Source: Mycobacterium sp. | GTDB taxonomy: Bacteria; Actinomycetota; Actinomycetes; Mycobacteriales; Mycobacteriaceae | Assembly (NCBI GenBank): GCA_025963385.1 | Contig: JAOPUT010000299.1 | Coordinates: 1 to 64,000, forward strand | Length of the DNA stretch: 64,000 bases | Direction: 5' to 3' | Part shown: positions 10,028 through 12,708 of the stretch, piece by piece | How the letters are laid out: every line of letters starts with the position of its first letter | How positions within the stretch are numbered: position 1 is the first letter of the stretch | Translations under genes and position numbers: made by a program | The notes under the pieces: model-generated | Databases searched by the model: none | What the model was told of the DNA's origin: nothing | Seen by the model: only the letters and a program-made list of their open reading frames with translations

Positions 10028-10672
10028 GTGGCTTCGGTGCTGACGGTGAACCGTGCTCAGGGCGTGGGGCTCAAGACCGGAATCGACAAGCGCCCGACGG
10101 ACGAACGCGTGGAGGTTCGGGCGCCCGGCCCGTTGCGCGGCGGCCTCGGCAGCGGCATCGTCGGCGACGTCATCGGCAACAAGAAGCTGCACGGCGGCGA
10201 CGACCAGGCCGTGTACGCGTACGCTCGCGAGGACCTCGACGCGTGGGAACGCACGCTCGCTCGCGATCTCAGCAATGGCCTCTTCGGCGAGAACATCACG
10301 ACGACCGGCATCGACCTCACCGGTGCCGTCATCGGTGAGCGGTGGCGGGTCGGGTCGGACAACCTCCTGCTCGAGGTGTCGCAACCGAGGATTCCCTGCC
10401 AGACGTTCACCAGGCGACTGGGCATCAAGGGGTGGGTCAAGACGTTCACCGCCGCTGCCGTCCCCGGCGCCTATACGCGGGTCGTCGAACCCGGCTCGAT
10501 GGGCAGCGGTGACTCCATCGAAGTGGTTGCGCGCCCCGACCACGGGGTCACGATTGGCCTCGTGTTCCGGGCCATCACGCTCGAACCCGAGCTGCTGCCA
10601 AGGCTTCTCGACGTTCACGCACTTCCCGACGAGATCAAGCAGCTCGCCCGTCGCAGGGCTGTCTCCGAATAG
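10028..10672 (+). CDS. MOSC domain protein
   Basis: DVIGNKKLHGGDDQAVYAYAREDLDAWE; LFGENITTTGIDLTGAVIGERWRVG; QPRIPCQTF. Confidence 0.85.
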   Translation: MASVLTVNRAQGVGLKTGIDKRPTDERVEVRAPGPLRGGLGSGIVGDVIGNKKLHGGDDQAVYAYAREDLDAWERTLARDLSNGLFGENITTTGIDLTGAVIGERWRVGSDNLLLEVSQPRIPCQTFTRRLGIKGWVKTFTAAAVPGAYTRVVEPGSMGSGDSIEVVARPDHGVTIGLVFRAITLEPELLPRLLDVHALPDEIKQLARRRAVSE

Positions 10673-10675
10673 CAG

Positions 10676-10708
10676 AAGGGGCACCCGGATCACGGGTGCC
10701 CCTCCCTT
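10676..10708. terminator. Intrinsic terminator-like hairpin (GGGGCACCCG gatca CGGGTGCCCC)
   Basis: Strong GC stem between convergent genes. Confidence 0.7.
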
Positions 10709-10721
10709 GGTTGATCGCCAA

Positions 10722-10925
10722 TCAGCGACCGTTGCCCACGATGGGCCTCGGCGGCGTCTTCACCTGCTGCTGAATGTCGTTGATCCACTGGTGATGGTCG
10801 ATCCCGGTGGAGACATTGATCGATGCCGGGGCCGCGGGGGTGGCGGCGACTGCAGGGGCTGCCAGGCCGACGAGGGCGGCGCCCAACGCGCTGGCGGCGA
10901 TGGTGGCAAATCCGAACTTCTTCAT
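10722..10925 (-). CDS. Small secreted peptide (67 aa) with DHHxWINDIxQ motif
   Basis: Signal peptide MKKFGFATIAASALGAALVGLAAPAVAA; paralog of 12472-12648. Confidence 0.65.
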   Translation of the reverse strand: MKKFGFATIAASALGAALVGLAAPAVAATPAAPASINVSTGIDHHQWINDIQQQVKTPPRPIVGNGR

Positions 10926-11145
10926 TGTCGAACCCTTCTTCCTTCATCCTCTTTGGAGTTCTGACGGCTTCAACGCGCACGTCAGGGATGTCATTCCATT
11001 GGCAGAAAATGGCTGTTCGATGGCAGAAACCAGTCGCGCACAAGGATCGCTAGCCTAGCTAGCAAACCAACGCCTCAGTGCACGAGCCGATCTCGATGTC
11101 ACCGTTGCTCGAGATGGCCGAGATGCCGTCGCGCATCATTGGCGC

Positions 11146-12021
11146 ATGAGCACACGACTCGGAGTGATCTTCCGCCCCGACTTCCACCCCGACACCCTGC
11201 GACGGATCGCGTCAGAGGCGGAGGCGGTGGGCGTCGACGAACTGTGGTTCTGGGAGGACTGCTTCCAGCAGGGCGGCATCGCTCAGGTCGCCGTCGCGCT
11301 CGCCTCGACGGAGCGGCTGAGCATCGGCGTGGGGTTGGTGCCCGCGCCGCTGCGCAACGTCGCCGCGACTGCCATGGAGTTCGCCACCCTGGAGGCGATG
11401 TTCCCAGGCCGCATACAGATCGCCGTCGGACACGGCGTGCAGAGCTGGATGCGGCAGGCAGGCGCGGCGGTGGCGTCACCGCTGACATTGCTGCGTGAAT
11501 ACGTGACCGCGCTGCGGTCCCTGCTGTCCGGAGACGTCGTCGACGTCGAGGGCCGTTACGTCCGATTGTCCGGCGTTCGGCTGGAGTTTGCGCCCGCGCG
11601 CCCGCTTCCGATCCTCATCGGTGGCACCGGACCAAAGACGCTGCGACTCGCCGGTGAGATCGCCGACGGGGTCCTGGTCGACAGCCGGTATTCGACGACC
11701 ACGGTGCACGACGCGCTCGGCCACGTCGCCGAGGGCCGTGCCGAGGGCCGTGCGAGCGGGCGGCCCTTCACCACCGTGCTGTTCCTGGTCTGCGCGCCCG
11801 GGGACGACGCGGGACGGCTGTTGGCAGAGGAGGCGGTTCGCCAGGAGGTACCCGAGGGCGGCGTGTTCGGCGTGGGCGGGACCGCTGAGCAGATCGCCGA
11901 CGGGCTCGCGCCCTACCGAGAGGCCGGCGTGGACGCAATCGCGCTACAGCCGTTGGGCCCGCCGGAGGGCATGACCGAGTTCATCGCGACGGCGGGACGC
12001 GTTCACCAGTGGTTGCGGTGA
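11146..12021 (+). CDS. LLM-class F420-dependent oxidoreductase
   Basis: MSTRLGVIFRPDFHPDTLRRIASEAEAVGVDELWFWEDCF; GRIQIAVGHGVQSWM; PILIGGTGPKTLRLAGEIADGVLVDS. Confidence 0.85.
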   Translation: MSTRLGVIFRPDFHPDTLRRIASEAEAVGVDELWFWEDCFQQGGIAQVAVALASTERLSIGVGLVPAPLRNVAATAMEFATLEAMFPGRIQIAVGHGVQSWMRQAGAAVASPLTLLREYVTALRSLLSGDVVDVEGRYVRLSGVRLEFAPARPLPILIGGTGPKTLRLAGEIADGVLVDSRYSTTTVHDALGHVAEGRAEGRASGRPFTTVLFLVCAPGDDAGRLLAEEAVRQEVPEGGVFGVGGTAEQIADGLAPYREAGVDAIALQPLGPPEGMTEFIATAGRVHQWLR

Positions 12022-12221
12022 ATGATGATGATCTGAGGCTGCTGTTGCACCGGCGGCGTGTTCGCGGTGATCTGGCTGTTGCCCGGTGACCCGCACTGTG
12101 TGGCGTTTCCGACGTCGGTGCAGGTGAGCGGGGAGGCCGTGGCCATCGGTGCCGCGACGATGGCGGCAGCGGCTCCTCCGGCCAGGACCAGTGGGGTCAG
12201 ATGACGGGCTGTGAAGCGCAT
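12003..12221 (-). CDS. Small exported hypothetical protein (72 aa)
   Basis: Signal peptide; LTCTDVGNATQCGSPGNSQIT resembles a mycobacterial small exported family; 19-nt tail-to-tail overlap with LLM gene. Confidence 0.5.
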   Translation of the reverse strand: MRFTARHLTPLVLAGGAAAAIVAAPMATASPLTCTDVGNATQCGSPGNSQITANTPPVQQQPQIIIIHRNHW

Positions 12222-12471
12222 GAGTCAAGTCCTTCGAGTGCGTTATCGCGTCAATGAGCTATTGGCGGTACCCAAGGGTCAGCACTCAAGGGGCGCAGCC
12301 TATTCCGCGCGGGGGCCGCGACGTGTGGCACCGGACACACCCGGAATGAATCCACGCCGAAGCTGGTTCTACTAGACAGACCGGCACGAGGAGACTTCTC
12401 ACCGGATAGAACGTCCGAACCGCAGCAGAACCGCCCGGGTCGAACACGTTCGAGATGAAGGGATGAACATC

Positions 12472-12648
12472 ATGAAGAACATCAAGAAGATTGGCTTTGC
12501 CACGATTATCGCCGGTGGACTCGCCGCCAGCGCCCTCGGTTTCTCGGGTGCCGCGCAGGCCGACATCGACCACCACGCGTTCATCAACGACATTACGCAG
12601 AACGTCTACGTGCCTCACGTGGACACCACGGTCCATCAGAGCCGCTGA
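12472..12648 (+). CDS. Small secreted peptide with IDHHAFINDITQ motif
   Basis: MKNIKKIGFATIIAGGLAASALGFSGAAQADIDHHAFINDITQNVYVPHVDTTVHQSR. Confidence 0.6.
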   Translation: MKNIKKIGFATIIAGGLAASALGFSGAAQADIDHHAFINDITQNVYVPHVDTTVHQSR

Positions 12649-12661
12649 CCCCGACTCATCG

Positions 12662-12692
12662 AAAGGGGCACCCGCACAGCGGGTGCCCCTTT
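12662..12692. terminator. Intrinsic terminator-like hairpin (GGGGCACCCG cacag CGGGTGCCCC TTT)
   Basis: Same stem as 10676-10708, flanked by A and T tracts. Confidence 0.75.
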
Positions 12693-12708
12693 CGCGTGTC
12701 GACTGCTG

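Follow-up and report, generated by a model that had tools for sequence, protein, structure and literature searches.

P1 and P2, two small genes in a 64,000-nucleotide stretch of mycobacterial DNA (the window), are confirmed by sequence comparison as real, conserved genes under purifying selection; the family to which they belong is unnamed, multi-copy and, judging from the genomes searched, found in fast-growing mycobacteria. Our best reading, held with a probability of about 0.6, is that its members belong to an activator-controlled regulon of a SigH-type ECF sigma factor, producing Sec-exported short peptides that would act in the envelope or outside the cell. By its sequence, each gene stands on its own: a conserved promoter of the stress type precedes a single exported peptide (about 28 residues), and a matching hairpin behind it is the presumed terminator. 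Two odd ORFs become in this way a testable regulon with a predicted regulator behind its promoter, and the analysis yields a bait sequence, a collection of peptides that fall into three subtypes, and stress of the SigH type as the predicted inducer. About 40% of the sampled species of the genus have the 55-bp composite promoter as a mark of small exported peptides; in this host group, secreted small proteins are mostly unannotated.

The P1 and P2 genes and their surroundings

P1 (10722..10925, minus strand) encodes a 67-aa exported peptide precursor of the GNGR subtype, and P2 (12472..12648, plus strand) a 58-aa precursor of the HQSR subtype; both were read directly from the DNA and are under purifying selection. 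The translated P1 precursor is composed of the signal peptide MKKFGFATIAASALGAALVGLAAPAVA (10845..10925, minus strand) and the mature part ATPAAPASINVSTGIDHHQWINDIQQQVKTPPRPIVGNGR, the core of which, GIDHHQWINDIQQQVKTPPRPIVGNGR, occupies positions 10725-10805 (minus strand). In P2, the signal peptide MKNIKKIGFATIIAGGLAASALGFSGAAQA (12472..12561, plus strand) is followed by a mature peptide, DIDHHAFINDITQNVYVPHVDTTVHQSR (12562..12645, plus strand), predicted from the family alignment. Both signal peptides carry the family-conserved KK and AxA elements, the latter marking the presumed cleavage site. An alternative in-frame ATG of P2 occurs at position 12463; the start at 12472 is preferred, since the ribosome site AAGGG (12458-12462) is correctly spaced only for the latter. 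An earlier, sequence-only reading of the window had drawn attention to two tiny ORFs with a common start, a common mature motif and a hairpin each, and had proposed that they encode tiny exported peptides. The KKxGFATI start, the IDHHxxINDI motif and both hairpins are present in the window, export is supported by the conserved, AxA-bearing signal peptide, and the resemblance of the pair is far beyond chance, with five family members in the genome.

The same reading had described cloned terminators, and the same hairpin stem indeed follows both peptides and is family-specific in the genome. The P1 hairpin (AGGGGCACCCG-loop-CGGGTGCCCCT; 10677..10703, minus strand) lies between P1 and a convergent MOSC gene, and the P2 hairpin (GAAAGGGGCACCCGC-ACA-GCGGGTGCCCCTTTC) is found at 12661..12693 (plus strand). 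The exact pattern GGGCACCCG-N2-8-CGGGTGCCC is found at four places in the 6.4-Mb genome, each directly after a family ORF (reversed control, 0), and the hairpin of the fifth copy differs by one wobble change. A looser hairpin pattern gives six occurrences in the genome, five after family ORFs and the sixth beside an unrelated gene. Across the family, 75 of 96 members have a fully paired 7-bp stem in the same register; it lies 13-30 nt behind the stop codon and shows compensatory changes at positions 5-7 (A-U/G-C, C-G/G-C/U-A/A-U). Of the features of an intrinsic terminator, the stem and its covariation are present, and the U tract is weak. The MOSC gene (10028-10672, plus strand) ends 5 nt before the P1 hairpin, which is probably a bidirectional terminator for the convergent MOSC and P1 genes; since each of the two hairpins in the window lies between convergent genes, both may serve both directions.

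The block formed by the MOSC gene, P1, an LLM oxidoreductase gene, a small secreted ORF, P2 and a HrpA-like helicase gene is conserved at loci L043, L044, L045 and L178. In M. hodleri P1 is missing, and its place is taken by an ORF that looks acyltransferase-like by its sequence. The small ORF between P1 and P2 (MRFTARHLTPLVLAGG...IIIIHRNHW; 12003-12221, minus strand) is another predicted exported product; it overlaps the 3' end of the LLM oxidoreductase gene and is kept in the orthologous blocks, with 72-81% identity over its full length in three of them. Of all pairs among the five paralogues, P1 and P2 have diverged most, and they fall into different clades of the tree. The pair is therefore not a recent inverted duplication, and a local inverted duplication is rejected on account of this divergence, the separate clades and the synteny of the block across species; what was described as an inverted duplicated cassette stands only as ancient paralogy. 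Clustering of the genes around the copies revealed no recurring partner gene of any kind, the neighbours being unrelated and locus-specific. At the copy on contig C177, a sensor histidine kinase gene (L002, 1-1320) ends about 180 bp upstream of the peptide gene.

Distribution of the family and features of its peptides

The source genome (Mycolicibacterium-type, 418 contigs, 6.4 Mb) was surveyed by pattern searches and protein searches, from which all genome-wide statistics derive. It contains five paralogues: P1 and P2 in the window and one copy each on contigs C177, C275 and C33. Profile matches were obtained in 79 of 149 genomes of the same genus, many with several full-length copies and some with the signal peptide only, and among 401 genomes of the wider taxonomic family, matches were limited to this genus and one weak case in another genus. 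The named hosts are rapid-growing environmental or opportunistic species (M. hodleri, M. moriokaense, M. wolinskyi, M. brisbanense, M. peregrinum and M. senegalense), alongside MAGs; the cassette also occurs in a MAG labelled only Actinomycetota. A tblastn search of plasmid and phage sequences revealed no family copy. Searches of Pfam, NCBIfam, PHROGs and PDB, with single proteins and with alignments, returned nothing meaningful; P1, P2 and the tested homologues gave no hit over the curated cut-offs of Pfam and NCBIfam and no significant PHROGs match, which bears out the earlier remark that no named family is known. In the literature searched, nothing specific was found on the operator, on the peptide strings or on mycobacterial small secreted peptides.

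In all, 96 family members were parsed; the figures for the signal peptide (consensus MKKFGFATIIASGLAAAVLGLAAPAQA) come from 55 non-redundant members and those for the mature core from 87 members. The signal peptide is more conserved than the core (3.3 vs 2.6 bits per column). The alignment displays a basic n-region, a hydrophobic core and small residues at positions -3 and -1, with Ala at -1 in 55/55 and at -3 in 52/55 members; a lipobox Cys and a twin Arg are both absent from the alignments. These features suggest export of the precursors by Sec and cleavage by signal peptidase I after AxA. In syntenic orthologues, pooled pN/pS lies at 0.24-0.25 over the signal peptide, compared with 0.31-0.41 over the mature part. 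At codons 5-6 there is a preference for GGA and TTT, both of them rare in the source genome, and the low GC content at the gene start would be consistent with strong translation.

In 80 of the 87 members, the mature part closes with a core that is 27-29 residues long; a variable spacer stands before it in some members, P1 among them. The main constants of the core are His4 (84/87) and Trp7 (82/87); His5, which completes an HH pair, occurs in 56. The number of His residues per mature peptide ranges from 1 to 6, with a mean of 2.7 in the GNGR type; net charge is mostly negative, and no member has a Cys in its mature part. Three C-terminal types (GNGR, HQSR-like and HSGR) track the tree, GNGR and HSGR forming one group each. 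AlphaFold models one helix that spans the signal peptide together with the HHxF/W segment, followed by an extended tail (pLDDT 76); with a pTM of 0.31, the mature peptide has no confident fold.

A composite promoter common to several exported products

Most members share the upstream arrangement CTGCCA-N15-CTGCCA-NN-GGAAT-N18-GTT, for which the consensus TTnCTGCCAaCCGnCGaTCAATTnCTGCCAnCGGAATTAAnCCnCTGACCTGCnGGTT was written by hand from the aligned sites. The CTGCCA direct repeats are 21 bp apart and directly precede the -35 box. In P1, the composite promoter (10972..11026, minus strand) consists of CTGCCA at 11026-11021 and 11005-11000, GGAAT at 10997-10993 and GTT at 10974-10972; it has no mismatch to the pattern and is one of three such sites in the genome. 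GGAAT-N17-19-GTT is found in 72 of 96 upstream regions (0.5% in shuffles), the looser GGAA-N17-20-GTT in 87 (3.4% in shuffles) and CTGCCA-N15-CYGCCA in 64. Written as a 55-mer with 21 fixed bases, the pattern matches three places in its own genome (up to 3 mismatches), all of them family members, and occurs in 59 of 148 genomes of the genus (up to 2 mismatches), where the control has no match. The sequence-only reading had registered neither this promoter, nor the genome- and genus-wide family, nor the use of the same promoter and signal peptide for other peptides.

The CTGCCA repeats are missing from P2 and from several subfamilies. P2 has the ECF-type core GGAAT-N18-GTT by sequence match (12343..12368, plus strand); directly upstream of the -35 box, the repeats are replaced by the palindrome GTGTGGCACCGGACACAC (12323..12340, plus strand), of the form GTGTG-N8-CACAC, and related sequences are found in the P2 orthologues L043, L044 and L178. 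Since P2 keeps the core and has a palindrome in place of CTGCCA, the operator is the variable part and the sigma core the more constant one. A third operator type is seen in a subfamily of six loci (L055, L058, L071, L077, L079 and L083), in which a GTGAnCACnGTCACGG-like sequence upstream of GGAAT replaces the repeats.

The SigH consensus of Corynebacterium is GGAAT-N18-19-GTT, SigE preferring GGAAC, and similar rules apply in M. tuberculosis, where T also prevails at that SigH position (PMC10012870). The source genome encodes SigH (TIGR02947, over the cut-off) and two weaker paralogues, and SigH was present in 32 of 32 genomes checked. SigH-type paralogues average 3.3 in promoter-bearing and 1.25 in promoter-less genomes (16 each), a comparison confounded by lineage and genome size. 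Such paralogues are seemingly not required, since two promoter-bearing genomes have just a single SigH-type factor at the cut-off applied. The sigH locus of the source genome has no obvious matching autoregulatory site. Taken together, the promoter points to control by a SigH-type ECF factor, not pinned to SigH itself because similar promoters are also recognised by its paralogues and by other ECF factors, and the CTGCCA repeats appear to be a dedicated operator for a putative activator.

Three further mature peptides, unrelated to those of the family, are encoded behind the same promoter and a closely similar signal peptide: type (b), with PHYSVDNHDxxNTTNGFVDLPF; type (c), a mature part of about 70 residues with LxxQGYxVxVNRxGxxPLxxAxVVxVRxG; and type (d), with DSLGYTVxxDKLGTIDVIQRD. 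Wherever loci fetched by the promoter alone could be read, a small exported protein lies downstream; in 16 genomes searched with the operator alone, about 46 of 49 parsed matches precede small exported proteins. The 150 distinct promoter 55-mers from all loci collected include no readable one that precedes anything else, in a set partly biased by the many loci that were fetched by protein similarity. With a constant promoter and signal-peptide part that serves at least three further mature peptides, the genes would make up a single regulon. The type (c) proteins (L128-L157, L259-L307) are about 100 aa long, read 'QGYxVxVNRxGxxPLxxAxVV..VYVDVK', occur in several copies per genome and have no significant Pfam match. 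In two copies, L300 and L275 (G028:C143), the frame is seemingly interrupted by a duplicated 5' stretch or reads as N, possibly through recombination or assembly error between near-identical copies.

Role of the peptides and relation to known systems

According to the reading that we prefer, each copy would be a stand-alone, monocistronic, stress-type cassette for a Sec-exported short peptide. A SigH/SigR-type ECF sigma factor would recognise GGAAT-N18-GTT, and a putative DNA-binding protein would occupy the two CTGCCA repeats in P1 and most members, the operator of P2 being different. Sec would export the precursor, signal peptidase I would cleave it behind AxA, and the released peptide would end in the fixed 27-29-residue core, predicted to consist of an HxxW helix and, after it, a conserved C-terminal tail in extended form; the family-specific hairpin would stop transcription. 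Most likely, such peptides would be short linear ligands that act in the envelope or extracellularly during envelope or thiol stress. More tentatively, the genes may represent a previously undescribed regulon, in which an ECF sigma factor and a new direct-repeat-binding regulator govern a constant promoter and signal-peptide cassette, and interchangeable peptides act as intercellular or envelope signals.

The His pair and the other His residues had also suggested a His-rich, metal-binding product, that is, secreted peptides that chelate or buffer Cu, Zn or Ni outside the membrane. The peptides are small and exported, and the HH pair and the range of one to six His residues would agree with such a role, but in place of several conserved Cys or His ligands there is one near-invariant His, about equalled in conservation by Trp, and no Cys; the low mean His content of the GNGR type and the lack of a recurring neighbour gene also speak against it. 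Zur and CsoR operators are palindromic, and the operator of this family is a direct repeat. Metal binding thus appears rather unlikely. The possibility that several types of exported linear peptide are signals (pheromones), sensed by the same or neighbouring cells, is a doubtful one: the fixed core length, the conservation up to the last residue and the maintenance of GNGR, HQSR and HSGR as lineages would fit, but genes for a receptor, a protease or a transporter do not recur next to the copies, and a histidine kinase gene adjoins only the C177 copy.

Bacteriocins or other antimicrobial peptides could equally be small, exported, multi-copy and diversified. We consider this role improbable, given the mostly negative net charge, the lack of Cys and of Pfam or NCBIfam matches, and the neighbouring genes, among which no immunity or modification gene recurs; the modification, transport and immunity genes of a RiPP or bacteriocin cluster were not found beside the precursors. 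It is more improbable still that the promoter and terminator were spread by transposition with the peptide as a passenger. Such a mobile or repeat-driven cassette would account for a promoter, signal peptide and hairpin that are more uniform than the mature peptide, but the block in the window is syntenic across species, the peptide core is under purifying selection, the hairpins covary, and no copies were found in plasmids or phages.

Like the SigH/SigR (ECF) regulon, the regulon proposed here has GGAAT at -35, a spacer of 18-19 and GTT at -10 (PMC10012870), in a genome that encodes SigH. Unlike its known targets, which are mainly redox, heat and DNA-repair genes (PMC10012870), the present genes encode tiny exported peptides and possess a long conserved CTGCCA-repeat operator upstream. 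The hairpins resemble intrinsic terminators in their GC-rich stem at 13-30 nt after the stop codon and in its compensatory changes, and differ in their weak U tract and in a stem sequence that is family-specific in the genome. Bufferins and other MNIO-modified copper-binding peptides are small peptides proposed to bind metal (PMC12452194); the present peptides are likewise small and were proposed as metal binders, but they contain no Cys and are accompanied by no recurring neighbour gene. The type (c) exported proteins share their promoter and signal peptide with the P1/P2 family, and differ from it in an unrelated mature part of about 70 residues.
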